Shown here: positions 5,272-64,000 of the stretch, piece after piece
Layout of the letters: each line of letters opens with the position of its first letter
How positions within the stretch are numbered: position 1 is the first letter of the stretch
Assembly: GCF_000745005.1 (NCBI RefSeq)
Contig: NZ_JQNB01000001.1
Location: 3,837,501-3,901,500 of the forward strand
From: Luteibacter sp. 9135
Lineage (GTDB): Bacteria; Pseudomonadota; Gammaproteobacteria; Xanthomonadales; Rhodanobacteraceae
Length of the DNA stretch: 64,000 nt
Direction: 5' to 3'
Notes under the pieces: model-generated
Database searches by the model: none
What the model was told of the DNA's origin: nothing
The model's input: the letters and a program-made list of their open reading frames with translations, nothing else
Made by a program: the position numbers and the translations under genes

Positions 5272-5832
5272 ATGTCTTCCCAGACCACCCTGCCCGACCT
5301 TCCTGCCCTCCAAGCGCACTTTGAACGCATGGGGCACACGCTGCGTTTCGATGTCGAATCCCATGCGGATGATGGCCCTTGGGTGCTTGCCCGCCCGCAC
5401 GCGGGTATTGCGGAGGAAACCTTCCTGACACTCGAGCAGCTGTGGGAATGGTGGCTTGCTGAGGTTGTGTGGATCCTCAACACGGACACGGAGTACCGAC
5501 TCCTCAAGGCCTGGTATCGCACGGGGACCCCCGATGAATGCGCCGCACTCGAATCATGGGCAGACCCCGATTCGGACCTGGAAGGCACCGTCCGCCCCTT
5601 TCGCCGCTATGACCAGTTCCTCGGCCGCTCCGCCATCGGTGTCCATCATCTACCGGAGGACTGGCCGAACATTGTTCGCAGCATCGAAGCGCGCTGTGTG
5701 CATCCGTCAGAGCGCAGCCGCTCAAGACTGCATCGCTTCATCGGTCGGGAGAATGGTCGGCGCGCGCGTCAGGCCCTCGCTGCCGCAGTGCCCGAGTCCG
5801 CTCGAGCCGCCAGGGTGCCGCACCGCCTCTAG
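5272..5832 (+). CDS. Unknown protein, paralogue of the gene at 14146
   Basis: A 186-residue soluble protein with no recognised domain. Its middle (LEQLWEWWLAEVVWILN, then KAWYRTGTPDECAALESW) aligns by eye with DDLCEWWRQWIGGAYFVL and RDTWSSDGPERAAIDAW in the product at 14146-14745. The two form a small island family with an EWW core, a T-x-LL helix and an acidic AA-W segment. The start at 5272 is the first Met of the well-formed text; earlier frame reaches into debris. It ends 42 bases before the nuclease-like gene and is probably co-transcribed. Function unknown. Confidence 0.6.
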   Translation: MSSQTTLPDLPALQAHFERMGHTLRFDVESHADDGPWVLARPHAGIAEETFLTLEQLWEWWLAEVVWILNTDTEYRLLKAWYRTGTPDECAALESWADPDSDLEGTVRPFRRYDQFLGRSAIGVHHLPEDWPNIVRSIEARCVHPSERSRSRLHRFIGRENGRRARQALAAAVPESARAARVPHRL

Positions 5833-58671: not shown

Positions 58672-60273
58672 CTACAGGCCCATCGTGTCCCAGAACGCGC
58701 AACCCACCCGCGGCACGCCCTCGTCCACCGGGGTTCGCGACGGCCCGTAGAGCACGTTGGCCGGGGCGCCCTCCGGCGTGCCGGCCAGGCGGCCGGTGCG
58801 CGCGAAGGTGGCCCAGTCCCTCTGCATGCGGTCGGACAACGCCTGCTGCGCCGGGCTGAAGCGGGCGGGGTCCGCCAGCGCCCAGCGTGTCTGGAACAGG
58901 TACACGATCTCGGACGCATGGTACGCGCCCAGGTCGGCCTTGCGCGAGAGCGCGAACGGCGCCTGCGGGTCCGTGAACGCGTAACGCCAGGTCGGCGTGG
59001 CGCGGGCCAGCATGGTCGACAGCGACAGCGTCGGGCAGGCGAAGACACCGTCGGTCACCGCCGCCGCATACGCGTCACGCAACGAAGGATACCGCGCGGC
59101 CGGATAGGCCCCCGCCACCGCGTCGGCGTGAGCGCCGAACGTGCTGGCCATGCGTGCGTCGTAATCGCGCCGGTCGTCGAGCTGGCCCAGCTTGCCGAGC
59201 AGGAAACCGAAGAGCCGCCCCTCGTCGGCGTTGTTGCCGATGAGCACCGGCACGTGGGCGAAGTGGCCGCGGGCGAACGCCTCGCGCGGCGCCTCCGGAA
59301 GCACGCTGTCGCCGGCGATGAAGTTCCATGCATGCGGTCCCAGCACGCCGCGCGAGGGGGCCAGCGCGGCATTTACGCCGCGCGGTGACAGGCGCCGCAG
59401 GCAGGCCACCACATCTGCTCCCGTGCAGCCGAGGGCGGCCGCGTAGCGAACGCCGCCCGCGTCGGCGTCGGCCACCGGCACGGTCGACTCGTTCAGCGTG
59501 CAGGGGCCGCTTTGCATGATCGCACGCTGGAACAGGCCCCGTGCACCCGGTGCCACCAGCTGCGCGCAGACGCTCCACGCCCCGGCGGATTAGCCGAACA
59601 GGGTGACGTTGCCGGGATCGCCGCCGAACCGGGCGATGTTGTCGCGCACCCAGCGCAACGCGGCCTGCTGATCGAGCAACCCGAGGTTGGCCGCGCCGCC
59701 GGCTTCGGCACGCAACGCCGGATGGGCCAGGAAGCCCAGGGACGCCAGGCGGTAGTTCACCGCCACGGTGACGACATCCTGCCGGCGTGCCAGCACGCTG
59801 GGATCGTATTGACGGTTGGCACCCAGCACCAGCGCACCGCCATAGATCCACACCATCACCGGCTTGCGATCGCCGGGCTTCGCGGTCGGCGGCGTATAGA
59901 CATTGAGGTTGAGGCAATCCTCGTCGCCGATCACCAGCCAGTGGCTCGGTTTGCCGGTCTGTGCCCCGGGACTGAGATTCTGTACGCACTGGTGGCCAAG
60001 CGCCGCGGCATCGCGCGGCGCGTGCCACGGCACCGCAGGCAACGGCTCACGCCAACGCAGGGCCCCGACGGGCGCACGCGCATAGGGGATGCCGAGATAG
60101 GCCTGCCCCTCTGCCGAGGTCACGCCAATCACGGGCCCGCTCGCCGTCATCACCGTCGCTGCGGCATGCCGGTCCGCACGGGTGATATGCGTTGCCGCAC
60201 CCGGCGGCGCACGGCAGCCGGCAACGGCGAACATCACCAACAGCGGAAGAAGCCATGAACCGGGACGTGGCAT
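58672..60273 (-). pseudogene. Type B carboxylesterase lipoprotein with in-frame TAA
   Basis: Two open parts lie in the same frame: 60273-59593 and 59589-58672, separated by one TAA (59592-59590). Restored, it is about 533 residues: lipoprotein signal (LLPLLVMFAVAGC), GQAYLGIPYARAPVG, DEDCLNLNVYTPP, VMVWIYGGALVLG, then DPGNVTLFG-stop-SAGAWSVCAQLV. The TAA occupies the residue before the nucleophile Ser (normally GESAG or GQSAG). Acid and His partners follow (GNNADEGRLFGF, YHASEIVYLF). One base change from a sense codon would do this. It is third in the peptide/P450 operon, 33 bases after the P450. Confidence 0.9.
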
Positions 60274-60306
60274 CGCGGTACGTTCCTAAAAACGAAGGGC
60301 GCGAAG

Positions 60307-61362
60307 CTATACGCGACGGCCCGGCGACGCGATGTGAACGATCTTCACCCCGTCCACGCCTAGCAAGCCGGCGAGCGGCACCTTCGCCGCGGTCTGCCGA
60401 GGGCTCACGCCCAGCCCGTTGTTGCGCAGCATGTCGAGCAACCGCTCCGCCAGCGGCATCACCATGTGCCGTCCCCAGCAGCGCTCCGAGGCATGCCCGA
60501 ACGGCAGGTAGCCCGGATGGTTGTCGGGGTCGAGGTCGTTCCACCGCTCGGGACGGAAAACGTCCGGATCGTCCCAGAGGGCGGGATCGCGATGGCTCAG
60601 CAGTGGCAAGACCAGCACGTCGTCCTTCTCGCCGATGCGGGGGTCCAGAGCCGCGTATTCCAGTGAAGCGTTGCGCAGGATGTTCCACGACGGCGGGAGC
60701 AATCGCATGGACTCGTGGATAATATTCACGTTCGAATCGCCATCGTCGAACGGCGCGCCGAGCCACATCGCATTGGCGACCAGCGTCGAGATGGTGAAGC
60801 AGACCGGCGCGACGGTGCGCCGGTAAAGCCCCATGGCATAGCGCCGGTCGTGATACGTAGACGCCTGCGCGGTCAGCGCGGCGATCGCTGAGGCATCGGG
60901 GCCCAGCTTGAGCGACGACAGCGCACCCGTGACGATGACCGCCCACGTCAGCTTCGGCGTGAGCTCCAGCACGCGGTCCATGAGGAAGCGCAAGCGAAGC
61001 GGATCGTGACCCAGCAGCATGTCGCGCAGGTAGACATGGCCGACGCCCGGCCACTCGCCGGTGAAGTCCACGCCGGTCGGTACGGGCTCTTTCAGGGCCA
61101 GGCGGACGTCGCGACCCACGGCCTGCATCAGCCTGGCCGCGTCGGTGCGGGGGATGGAGCGGCCGTGCAACGGCTTGAAGGTGGGTCGCTCGAACTCGGT
61201 GGCATAGCGCGCGGCGAGCACGCGGTCCATGATCCCGGGCCCGGCGACGCCGACGGTGGTCGCGTCCAGCCGGAACACATCGCTGCCGCCATGCTCCCGC
61301 AACAAGGCTTGCAGCCTCGGTGCGAAGACGGTCGTCCTGGCATGCTTGCCGATAGCGTGCAT
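60307..61362 (-). CDS. Cytochrome P450, likely peptide cross-linking enzyme
   Basis: A 351-residue P450, shorter than the usual 400. ExxR is in HESMRLLPPSWNILRNA; the heme-binding loop is LPFGHASERCWGRHMV, with the Cys ligand and Ala in place of the first Gly. The K-to-heme stretch DDPDVFRPERWNDLDP is typical. The I-helix (PVCFTISTLVANAMWLG) lacks the usual acid-Thr pair, as in some P450s that couple aromatic rings rather than insert oxygen. GGGAG lies 5 bases before 61362; a Met at 61407 is weaker. It follows a 26-codon peptide gene by 113 bases, so its substrate is probably that peptide. Confidence 0.9.
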   Translation of the reverse strand: MHAIGKHARTTVFAPRLQALLREHGGSDVFRLDATTVGVAGPGIMDRVLAARYATEFERPTFKPLHGRSIPRTDAARLMQAVGRDVRLALKEPVPTGVDFTGEWPGVGHVYLRDMLLGHDPLRLRFLMDRVLELTPKLTWAVIVTGALSSLKLGPDASAIAALTAQASTYHDRRYAMGLYRRTVAPVCFTISTLVANAMWLGAPFDDGDSNVNIIHESMRLLPPSWNILRNASLEYAALDPRIGEKDDVLVLPLLSHRDPALWDDPDVFRPERWNDLDPDNHPGYLPFGHASERCWGRHMVMPLAERLLDMLRNNGLGVSPRQTAAKVPLAGLLGVDGVKIVHIASPGRRV

Positions 61363-61445
61363 ACGTCTCCCTACGTCTGGCAAGGAGGGACCGCACCGTT
61401 TGCCCATGAAACCCCGGCGCCTGGTGCGGTCCCGATCGTCGGCTG

Positions 61446-61463
61446 CGTTCCGCTAGCGGAACG
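61446..61463 (-). promoter_or_regulatory. Hairpin between peptide gene and P450 gene
   Basis: CGTTCCGCT and AGCGGAACG form a perfect 18-base palindrome 12 bases after the peptide stop codon. It is followed by no T-run on the minus strand. In peptide operons such a stem often stabilises the short precursor message or reduces read-through so that the precursor exceeds the enzyme; that role is inferred. Confidence 0.5.
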
Positions 61464-61475
61464 TGGAGGGGACGG

Positions 61476-61556
61476 TCAGTACCAGATGTACCAGGCGTAC
61501 GACTTCAGGCTTTTGTTCGGCGTAAGCATGTTCTTGAGCGCGAAAAGAGCTTTCAT
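61476..61556 (-). CDS. Atropopeptide (tryptorubin-like) RiPP precursor, 26 residues
   Basis: A 26-codon gene on the minus strand, below the usual length limit for gene calling. GGAGGTGAT lies 5 bases before the ATG (61561-61569 read in reverse), nearly a full match to the 16S tail. The leader is MKALFALKNMLTPNK and the last nine residues are KSYAWYIWY, with the stop right after Y26. AWYIWY (21-26) is the hexapeptide of tryptorubin A, as I recall it. Atropopeptide loci need only a precursor and a P450 that joins the Trp and Tyr side chains; a P450 follows here. Leader removal would be by an unlinked protease. The core identity is a recollection, not a search result. Confidence 0.88.
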   Translation of the reverse strand: MKALFALKNMLTPNKSLKSYAWYIWY

Positions 61557-61651
61557 GGGTATCACCTCCGGTCGTTCGGGACCCGTGTGGCGCCATCGAA
61601 GGCATGCGGACTCGACCGACCCCGCAACACCGTCCCGTTTCCATACTAGCC

Positions 61652-61678
61652 TTGCCGTCCGCAGAGTGCGGGCGGCAA
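61652..61678. promoter_or_regulatory. Imperfect 12-base inverted repeat upstream of peptide gene
   Basis: TTGCCGTCCGCA and TGCGGGCGGCAA pair at 11 of 12 positions around GAG. It lies about 96 bases before the peptide ATG and 74 after the end of the preceding gene on the same strand. No T-run follows, so it could be an operator for the peptide operon or a weak terminator for the upstream gene. Confidence 0.4.
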
Positions 61679-61751
61679 AGTGTATGGACGTCCGAAGTGT
61701 GACCCGGTTCGCAGAAGCGTCAGCTGTGCCGCAAACCGGGTTCGTGTGTTC

Positions 61752-62186
61752 TTACGGAAGGATCTCGCCTTCGTCTTCTCCGTTCCACCACGTGATGCGG
61801 ATAGCGTGCACCTTCAACAGCACGATGCCCGGCGTGTCCACGCCCTGCTCGAACCAGCGTTCCAGCTTGTCCTGCCAGTGCTGCTGGAGCACCGACTTCT
61901 CACGGATCACCTGTGCCCTGCCCTCGACCGCGACGAACAGCGGCGGCTTGCCGAGCAGCGACTTGGAGCCGGTGAACGACAGCGCGACATGGTCATTGGC
62001 TTCGATCTCGCGAACCACATGGGTGTCTTCATAGGCGAAGAACCAGCTGTCACCGTCGTACTCCACGTCACCGTTGTTGCTCATGGGACGGCCGGCGATC
62101 TCGCCGGATGAGGTGAAGGTCTGCAACATCGCAAAGTCGATGTCGGCCATCTTCTTGGCAAGCTCGGGAAGCGTCATCGTCGTCAT
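61752..62186 (-). CDS. Pyridoxamine-phosphate-oxidase-fold general stress protein
   Basis: A 144-residue split-barrel flavin-binding protein: IDFAMLQTFTSSGEIAGRPM, then GDSWFFAYEDTHVVREIEAN, HVALSFTGSKSLLGKPPLFV and ITWWNGEDEGEI. This matches the group of small proteins called general stress protein 26-like, which bind FMN or F420 but are not PdxH. AGGAGA precedes the ATG at 62186 by about 8 bases; the frame opens at 62222. It is upstream of the peptide operon on the same strand but 195 bases away. Confidence 0.85.
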   Translation of the reverse strand: MTTMTLPELAKKMADIDFAMLQTFTSSGEIAGRPMSNNGDVEYDGDSWFFAYEDTHVVREIEANDHVALSFTGSKSLLGKPPLFVAVEGRAQVIREKSVLQQHWQDKLERWFEQGVDTPGIVLLKVHAIRITWWNGEDEGEILP

Positions 62187-62254
62187 GGTCGGTCTCCTGG
62201 TGAGGCTGGCAGACTGCGTCACCCCACCGGAGGGGAACGTGAAGGATGTGCGGT

Positions 62255-63133
62255 TTACGGCTCGACCAACGCGGTCGATCCGTAGGCCCGGTTCATGGCC
62301 TCCTGGAACGCGTTCATCTGCTCGTTCACTTCCTTGGAAAGCGATCCCTTCTGCATGATTTCGACGGATGCATGCGAGTACGCCATGCTCAGCTTGAAGT
62401 TCTCCTTCTGCAGGGCTTCCTGCTCGGAGACGTCCTTGGCCTTCAGGTACTTCGCGTAGTTCTCGCGCAGCGGCAGGCTGAGCTGCTGCACTTCCGCGTT
62501 GTCGATCGGCGGCAACGTGGCCGGCAGGATCGTCACCTTGCGCACCACCGGCGGGGCATCCTTCTGACGGTTCGCCTCAAAGTCCTTTTTGGCATCGGGG
62601 TTCTTCCCGAGGAAGGCGACGATGAAATCCTTGGCGCGAAAAATCTTGTTGTGCACCGTGTTGTTCGAGCCGTTCTCATGTTCCACGACGCTGTCCGGCA
62701 GTTCCTCGTCCACGCCGTAGGTCCAGTCCTTGTCGATGAACAGATCGCTGGACTGCCTCATCGTGCCTTCGAACGTCACGCCTTCCAGGACCACCTGGTC
62801 CAGCTTGCCCGTGTAACCGGGCGAGGTCGAACCCACCTTCTCGAAGCTCTGGCGATAGATCACGTAATCGCTGAGCGTGGGATTGATGATGCCGCCACGT
62901 CCGCGGTAGTACGAGATGAACTTGATGTCGCCCACGACATCGCCCTTCATCGTGTGCTCGCCGGCGTCCAGCGAGAGTTCCTTGTCCTCATGCGGCGCCA
63001 CCTCGTAGGTCTTGCCGTCGATGGTGAGCGACAACGGCTTGTCGGTCGGGTTGTCGATGGCGTAGTCGGCGCTGCGGCCGCTGCAGCCGGCAAGCAGGGC
63101 GATGAGGGCCAGGGGCAGGTAGCGTTTTTTCAT
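62255..63133 (-). CDS. Lipoprotein coupled to an M48 protease gene
   Basis: A 292-residue lipoprotein: MKKRYLPLALIALLAGC with lipidated C17. The mature part has a strand domain (YAIDNPTDKPLSLTIDGKTY, EVAPHEDKELSLDAGEHTMK), a region YVIYRQSFEKVGS and a helical C-terminus (SKEVNEQMNAFQEAMNRAYG). Its ATG overlaps the stop of the M48 gene (ATGA), which implies a joint function, perhaps as adaptor or substrate-holder for the protease. Family not recognised. Confidence 0.75.
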   Translation of the reverse strand: MKKRYLPLALIALLAGCSGRSADYAIDNPTDKPLSLTIDGKTYEVAPHEDKELSLDAGEHTMKGDVVGDIKFISYYRGRGGIINPTLSDYVIYRQSFEKVGSTSPGYTGKLDQVVLEGVTFEGTMRQSSDLFIDKDWTYGVDEELPDSVVEHENGSNNTVHNKIFRAKDFIVAFLGKNPDAKKDFEANRQKDAPPVVRKVTILPATLPPIDNAEVQQLSLPLRENYAKYLKAKDVSEQEALQKENFKLSMAYSHASVEIMQKGSLSKEVNEQMNAFQEAMNRAYGSTALVEP

Positions 63134-64000
63134 GAGGCGGACTCGCTCGTTACAGGGGAATGGGAAGAAGGCATCGCACGGTTCGCGTGTCGCAAGGCTT
63201 CGTGCAGTTCGTCGGTCAGCGCCAGGGTCAATGCCTGCCAGGGCAGGATGCCGTGGCACGTCTGGGGGGCGACCGAGGACGGCGATCGCCCGGCCGACGC
63301 CTGCCGCACGGCAGCGTCGAGGGACACGCCGAGTGCATCGAGTCGCTCGGGAAGCGCCGGGTGCGCATCGAACGGATGGGCCATGCGCTCATCGCCCAGG
63401 TCGGTCAGCGGCGTGTCCTGGATGCTGAGGCGAAGCTGCTCGACGATGTCCTCGCCCGCCTGGCCGGAGGGCTCGATCGCGGCCAGCAACGCATGCAAGC
63501 GCGTTTCCAGCAGGATCGCGCGCGTGAGGCCGACGGCAAAGGCCGGCGCGCCGACCAGCGCCGCACCGGCCTTGTCCGCCTCGTGCTCCCTCACCCGGCT
63601 CCAGTGACGCTCGACGGCGCGGAACCGATACAGCGCATACATGGCCACCATGCGTCCGGGCCTGAGGAACACCTTGCCGATCCAGTTATCGTGCTCGTAC
63701 TCGGCCAACGACATTATTCGTCGCTCGAATCCGTGGTAGATCGGTGCGAAGCGCTCGCTGTAGGCCAGGTCCTGGCCGCTGAAGTGCGCCATCTCGTGGG
63801 CGACGATGCCGCGCAGTTCGTCGGCAGCCAGCCAAGGCAGATGAGCCGCGCACAGATAGAGCGTGTGTCCGTGCAACTCGCCCGCGTGCGTGGCGCGGAT
63901 GGTTCCCGAGGTTACGAAGAAGCCATCCAGCAATCCGACGGCGATGTGATCCAGGCGAGAAGCGGCCAGCGTGGCGGCCACGTCGTCGGTCATGGCCCAG
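63130..64000 (-). CDS. M48-type zinc metalloprotease, cut by right edge
   Basis: At least 289 residues are visible and the frame is open to the window end, so the N-terminus is outside. The zinc site is HEMAH in LRGIVAHEMAHFSGQDLAYS, and the third ligand is Glu in SRVREHEADKAGAALVG. The surfaces before it (HGHTLYLCAAHLPWLAADEL) fit M48 peptidases such as HtpX or Ste24-like proteins, which usually have membrane helices upstream. The C-terminal third (HPFDAHPALPERLDALGVSL) is the family's H-P-x-x-x-x-R-x-x-x-L element. Confidence 0.88.
   Translation of the reverse strand, partial: WAMTDDVAATLAASRLDHIAVGLLDGFFVTSGTIRATHAGELHGHTLYLCAAHLPWLAADELRGIVAHEMAHFSGQDLAYSERFAPIYHGFERRIMSLAEYEHDNWIGKVFLRPGRMVAMYALYRFRAVERHWSRVREHEADKAGAALVGAPAFAVGLTRAILLETRLHALLAAIEPSGQAGEDIVEQLRLSIQDTPLTDLGDERMAHPFDAHPALPERLDALGVSLDAAVRQASAGRSPSSVAPQTCHGILPWQALTLALTDELHEALRHANRAMPSSHSPVTSESAS

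Follow-up and report, generated by a model that had tools for sequence, protein, structure and literature searches.

A probable minimal atropopeptide gene cluster with the core AWYIWY in Luteibacter sp. 9135

Does a gammaproteobacterium encode an atropopeptide of the tryptorubin type, and how much does a core shared with a Streptomyces compound tell us? The question is raised by a 64,000-nucleotide stretch of the Luteibacter sp. 9135 genome (contig NZ_JQNB01000001.1, positions 3,837,501 to 3,901,500; the whole stretch is called the window here), where a 26-codon gene ends in the codons for AWYIWY, which we take to be the core of tryptorubin A. The initial annotation described this gene as having an ideally placed Shine-Dalgarno sequence and a P450 gene next to it on the same strand. 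Both observations hold, and the two genes together span 60307-61556.

Precursor and P450 genes

The features of the precursor gene are as follows.

61561..61569, minus strand: strong Shine-Dalgarno sequence GGAGGTGAT, ending 4 nt before the ATG
61476..61556, minus strand: precursor gene, 26 codons plus stop (open reading frame and translation; NF038372 match, E 1.1e-14)
61503..61514, minus strand: codons of the KSLK leader motif, precursor residues 15-18 (translation; motif as defined in PMC11450843)
61479..61496, minus strand: predicted core AWYIWY, encoded as precursor residues 21-26 (translation; boundary by analogy with the family)

The translated product is MKALFALKNMLTPNKSLKSYAWYIWY, and the TGA stop lies at 61476-61478. 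The precursor matched positions 1-26 of 26 in the NCBIfam model NF038372 (tryptorubin_fam) with 54.4 bits, above the curated cut-off of 33 bits, and thus belongs to the tryptorubin family by this model. Because the match extends over all 26 positions and exceeds the cut-off, the precursor is not a chance open reading frame; judged by its sequence, the resemblance to the family is not accidental. It was the single match in the whole 4.49-Mb genome (none was found in 14 control genomes), and among the NCBIfam models the precursor scored above the cut-off of the tryptorubin model alone. As NCBI holds such a model, the gene need not be missed by standard annotation, contrary to what had been supposed.

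The second gene lies downstream of the precursor.

60307..61362, minus strand: atropopeptide-type cytochrome P450 (Pfam p450; identity to relatives; tree; longest open reading frame begins at 61407)

The longest frame (60307-61407, 366 amino acids) has its second Met at residue 16. In an alignment of 20 chosen rows (the host protein and 19 relatives), the start in 18 of the relatives lies downstream of this Met or at most 2 residues ahead of it, P0076 being the one with a longer N-terminus. Since nearly all relatives start in this way and the first Met falls inside a predicted RNA hairpin, 61362 is the likely start of the P450. The intergenic distance is then 113 nt (68 nt with the longer frame), and both frames are open in the host. 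Identity to the 19 aligned relatives, which include proteins of Xanthomonas, Collimonas, Luteibacter, and Streptomyces, ranges from 65 to 92%, a level that settles the fold of the P450. Glu232, Arg235, and Cys310 are invariant in all 20 rows; the first two are presumably the ExxR residues and the last the heme Cys. With the P450 as query, 413 of 7997 scored candidate proteins matched at E ≤ 0.001. Identities of the top 120 of these ran from 92% to 66%, and their source names included Collimonas, Paraherbaspirillum, Xanthomonas, Luteibacter, Dyella, Burkholderia, Paraburkholderia, Streptomyces, and Kitasatospora.

Atropopeptides are defined in PMC11450843 by a P450 of the class in the cluster, a leader with KSLK (or a listed variant), and Trp at core position 2. 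All three features are present at the host locus. The P450 is assigned to the class by its identity to the 19 relatives and its place inside a tree with the characterized ScaB record (L088), a basis distinct from AtropoFinder, the classifier of that paper. KSLK occupies residues 15-18 of 26 (PMC11450843 places it at residues 17-20 of putative precursors), and Trp stands second in AWYIWY. The precursor also has the pattern of the bitryptides, the subfamily with the core xWxxWx and KSLK (PMC11450843). The claim of an atropopeptide-type cluster in a gammaproteobacterium is therefore borne out by the NF038372 score and the tree; the initial annotation had named, as grounds for refutation, a P450 outside the atropopeptide clade together with lack of transcription of the 26-codon gene, and the P450 lies inside the family tree. 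We conclude that the locus is very probably a minimal atropopeptide biosynthetic cluster of Luteibacter that cross-links AWYIWY (probability about 0.94).

Core sequences in related loci

We examined 82 loci: that of the window, that of genome G002 (L008), and 80 from relatives; L004, which duplicates L031, was excluded. Two peptide patterns had yielded 100 relatives, of which the best 80 were used, and all counts apply to this sample. In 77 of the 82 loci, among them the scabrirubin cluster of Embleya scabrispora (L088, NZ_KB889561.1), a precursor with a motif of the listed type lies upstream of the P450. None was found within 700 nt upstream in the other five (L029, L033, L080, L081, and L086), which were left out of the core counts. 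With a looser pattern, a tail appeared in three of the five and in neither L033 nor L080. In L029 and others of these loci, the leader may carry a motif that is not on the published list.

AWYIWY was the most common core (24 of the 77 loci in this sample of the best 80 of 100 relatives plus 2), followed by AWYLWY (20), AWYFWY (15), AWYHWY (5), SWYIWY (4), and others (9). The 16 proteobacterial loci had AWYIWY seven times (the window, Collimonas L011, Xanthomonas L018, L023, L024, and L027, and Dyella L020) and AWYLWY five times. Within the 76 six-residue cores, Trp at position 2 (76/76), Tyr at position 3 (75/76), and Trp at position 5 (75/76) hardly varied. Position 4 was I in 31, L in 23, F in 15, H in 5, and A and V in one each; it changed at least 22 times on the tree, and AWYIWY versus all other cores required at least 16 changes. 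With that many changes at position 4 and so little variation at the three others, recurrence of I is to be expected. Since position 4 is variable and AWYIWY common, the core shared with tryptorubin A tells little by itself. The layout and the core, which the initial annotation had presented as exceptional, are not: clusters in Xanthomonas and related genera, together with a possible transfer between phyla, were published in 2024 (PMC11450843), and AWYIWY is the commonest core. The annotation was right on the identity of the locus and overstated the surprise.

The cluster can be set beside three groups of known systems. It shares with the tryptorubin A and Streptomyces clusters (PMC11450843) the 26-residue precursor, KSLK, the two-gene layout with a single P450, and the core AWYIWY, and differs from them in host phylum; the string AWYIWY itself does not occur in the main text of that paper. 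The P450 of Streptomyces sp. SPB074, which has the same core, is ~65% identical to that of the host, a figure that refers to the SPB074 protein rather than to TryB. The P450s of the Xanthomonas, Dyella, Collimonas, Burkholderia, and other Luteibacter clusters are 69-75% identical to the host protein and in the same clade, and their cores are AWYIWY, AWYLWY, SWYIWY, and others. The scabrirubin cluster of E. scabrispora DSM 41855 (ScaA/ScaB) belongs to the same family and has KSLK; its core is TWFIWYS, its P450 is ~60% identical to that of the host, and its product has a single cross-link (PMC11450843).

Some individual loci departed from the common form. The precursor of L028 (Xanthomonas vasicola; from position 5820) has the atypical core SWGLYM after KSLKSS; the corresponding pattern xWxxYx has been reported for some Xanthomonas (PMC11450843). 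At 6001-7038 of L025 (Xanthomonas cucurbitae), the family P450 has an in-frame stop about one-third along, leaving two open reading frames, and this copy looks broken. A genome of the same order (G434:C1:2496770-2497011) has two adjacent precursor matches, of which one exceeds the family cut-off and the other falls short of it.

Distribution and phylogeny

The precursor is rare. Counting this genome in each case, it was found in 4 of 23 genomes at the level of the genus, 6 of 233 at family level, 15 of 398 at order level, and, at phylum level, in this genome alone (1 of 398); the last two sets are even samples of larger groups. The cluster is also present in two genomes of the same genus, a Luteibacter sp. 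(G014, NZ_WNDO01000003.1) and an uncultured Luteibacter sp. (G012, CAJYHU010000450.1).

In a P450 tree of 102 rows (midpoint rooted for drawing only), the host P450 lay inside one proteobacterial branch of 33 rows (support 100/99). This branch comprises the window, every row assigned to a named proteobacterium or to the same genus, and five metagenomic rows (P0003-P0007), and it stands beside Streptomyces branches. The nearest rows to the host P450 were P0005, P0003, P0004, and P0006 (five rows together, 99/91). This group joined four other Luteibacter rows at a weak 90/45, by which a union of the host P450 with the other Luteibacter P450s is neither shown nor rejected. With so low a support for that union, the host P450 may have been gained separately from another genus. 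L088 fell in a 10-row group on the other side of the midpoint; it is a long branch meeting another long one, a kind of join that calls for caution. Its position fits the published rooting of the P450 tree near ScaB (PMC12352619) and a presumed origin in Actinomycetota.

The initial annotation had taken the identical core to imply horizontal transfer or strong selection on the shape of the product. That goes too far, given the at least 22 changes at position 4; an old transfer between phyla is likely. As drawn, the tree does not ask for an interphylum transfer into the lineage of this genome. We also considered a recent transfer from Streptomyces to this strain, which is not needed since the host P450 groups with metagenomic and Luteibacter relatives inside one proteobacterial clade. 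GC content is uninformative on the transfer question (P450, 0.675; flanking 4-kb blocks, 0.682 and 0.648; whole window, 0.619).

The surroundings of the cluster differ from those of its relatives. No neighboring gene families were common to the host locus and the 15 other proteobacterial loci, and direct comparison with five Luteibacter and Dyella loci (E ≤ 1e-10) found nothing shared except the P450 itself. In a search for an empty site, stretches of genomes G019, G020, G010, and G009 contained a PNPOx-like relative (71-79%), and stretches of G008 and G016 contained a relative of the gene at 62255-63142 (72% and 43%, respectively). In none of these six stretches were the genes of the other side (the carboxylesterase pieces, MFS, and MCP) matched at E ≤ 1e-10. 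G022 also has PNPOx relatives. Because none of the six stretches matches genes on both sides, the insertion point is not defined.

Predicted RNA structure between the two genes

The spacer between the precursor and P450 genes is predicted to fold into stem-loops.

61367..61474, minus strand: structured spacer with stem-loops predicted in the RNA (folding energy -53.3 kcal/mol, z = -2.57; family-wide excess)
61446-61463, minus strand: predicted stem-loop inside a longer stem (61437-61474)
61387-61433, minus strand: predicted stem-loop (RNA fold)
61368-61386, minus strand: predicted stem-loop covering most of the Shine-Dalgarno-like GGGAG before the P450 ATG at 61362

Only 3 of 200 shuffles folded as well as the window spacer. 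We obtained spacer statistics for 73 of the 77 loci, those with spacers of 30-170 nt; as the P450 starts used were approximate, some spacers may include a few codons. The mean z was -3.18, and 56 of 73 spacers reached z ≤ -2, compared with 11/73 control sequences immediately upstream of the precursor, 10/72 downstream of the P450, and 2/73 inside the P450 gene; related loci are not independent in these counts. Ten of the 16 proteobacterial spacers reached z -2 (L023, L025, L026, L027, L028, and L089 did not). The host spacer lacks the T run of a classical terminator. A simple scan of 60000-62300 found no sigma-70 promoter, and the only terminator-like site of the promoter and terminator scan was inside the P450 gene, as was the one Rfam match (E up to 0.1; 60200-62300), which was far below the gathering score.

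From these data, we infer that the structured spacer probably lowers P450 output relative to that of the precursor. A spacer structure that sets the ratio of substrate to enzyme is in line with other RiPP operons. More doubtful, and in our view somewhat unlikely as a whole, is the combined proposal that Luteibacter makes tryptorubin and that a family-wide RNA device partly ends transcription or hides the P450 ribosome site. If true, tryptorubin from Luteibacter would be the first atropopeptide obtained from a proteobacterium, and a regulatory RNA device common to the family would keep the tiny substrate in excess of its enzyme. Neither PMC11450843 nor PMC12352619 uses hairpin, stem-loop, terminator, or intergenic in its main text, and a literature search on spacer structure returned nothing on atropopeptides.

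Proposed product and alternative explanations

By the model of PMC11450843, from which docking, chemistry, and leader removal are taken as described for other members, the 26-residue precursor would be translated and its leader would dock on the P450 through KSLK. The P450 would then oxidatively cross-link the aromatic Trp and Tyr side chains of AWYIWY, probably with one side chain joined to the backbone, and a protease encoded outside the cluster would cut off the leader, perhaps together with the first Ala. This would give tryptorubin A, tryptorubin B, or an isomer differing in its cross-links. The calculated [M+H]+ is 895.377 for AWYIWY with three cross-links (6 H lost) and 824.340 for the same product lacking Ala, compared with 901.424 for linear AWYIWY. 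lauA with lauB1 alone yielded tryptorubin B (PMC11450843), and the LauA core is WYIWY (PMC12352619). One core may yield products with different cross-links, for example, the varsorubins (PMC11450843), so the product is not readable from the core. Proteases have been noted near Xanthomonas atropopeptide clusters (PMC11450843); in the window, an M48-type peptidase gene is the third gene upstream, and nothing ties it to the peptide.

63130-63993: M48-type peptidase gene

The most substantial alternative, to which we give less than even odds, is that the same family makes something other than tryptorubin here, with one or two cross-links (a scabrirubin-like monocycle) or as an isomeric set. PMC11450843 reports that a single core gave products with either one modification or three, ScaB turns LauA into monocyclic WYIW and WYIWY (-2 Da; PMC12352619), and the host P450 is only ~65% identical to its SPB074 counterpart (L058) with the same core. 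Most characterized atropopeptides, on the other hand, carry the three bridges (PMC11450843), and the midpoint of the 102-row tree separates the host P450 from the ScaB record L088. The latter argument is weakened because P450s with AWYIWY cores (L072, L077, L078, and L079) are also on the L088 side and because L088 is a long branch. It is highly improbable that the locus represents another P450-RiPP class (of the biarylitide, cittilin, or aminopyruvatide type) or that the P450 is unrelated to the short frame. The best NCBIfam model for the P450 is indeed that of a RiPP P450, ApyO (NF050147, aminopyruvatide P450), but the match covers residues 228-327 only and reaches 63.4 bits against a cut-off of 525. 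The tryptorubin model is the sole cut-off passed by the precursor, and the pairing recurs in 77 of the 82 loci. As far as sequence comparison goes, pairing and identity speak strongly against this alternative.

The cluster could also be silent or on its way to being lost in this genome, with open frames and no expression. This is in keeping with the precursor being present in 4 of 23 genomes of the genus, with the simple sigma-70 scan giving no promoter, with the split of the next gene downstream by an in-frame stop, and with the relic of a second P450, which shows decay of such genes here. We consider it unlikely, as both frames are open, the Shine-Dalgarno sequence before the precursor is strong, and the invariant residues that we take for the heme Cys and ExxR are kept.

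The reading of the locus as an atropopeptide cluster adds Luteibacter to the carriers. The genus is not named in the main text of PMC11450843, and a literature search that included Luteibacter found no mention of it among the papers listed. According to PMC12352619, no atropopeptide had been reported from Pseudomonadota as of 2025, and 5 of 7 proteobacterial precursors tested were modified by the foreign P450 ScaB. The papers listed by a search for atropopeptides in Pseudomonadota from 2025 onward were this one and one on biarylitides. On the evidence found, proteobacterial atropopeptide clusters are thus already known and compounds from them are not; the Luteibacter cluster could give the first from Pseudomonadota. 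As a nonactinomycete with the six core residues of tryptorubin, it would also allow a test of whether P450s ~65% identical make the same shape.

Gene remnants in the host genome

A P450 relic of ~31-39 codons with a TAG inside (L153, 9233-9349, minus strand; G000:C1 2485735-2485848) resembles the C-terminus of atropopeptide P450s. Its best match was P0004 (64% over 31 residues; E 7.7e-7 against a 19-kb stretch), and its DNA is 76% identical to the P450 of the window over 79 columns. A tRNA-Gly gene is ~1.2 kb away from the relic, and the cluster in the window is at a distance of 1.4 Mb. A second disrupted gene directly follows the P450 on the downstream side.

58672-60273, minus strand: carboxylesterase gene, interrupted by an in-frame TAA stop (59590-59592)

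The stop sits at G-stop-S-A-G, presumably the nucleophile elbow. Elsewhere in the genome, a 44% relative of this carboxylesterase has an open frame of 509 codons.
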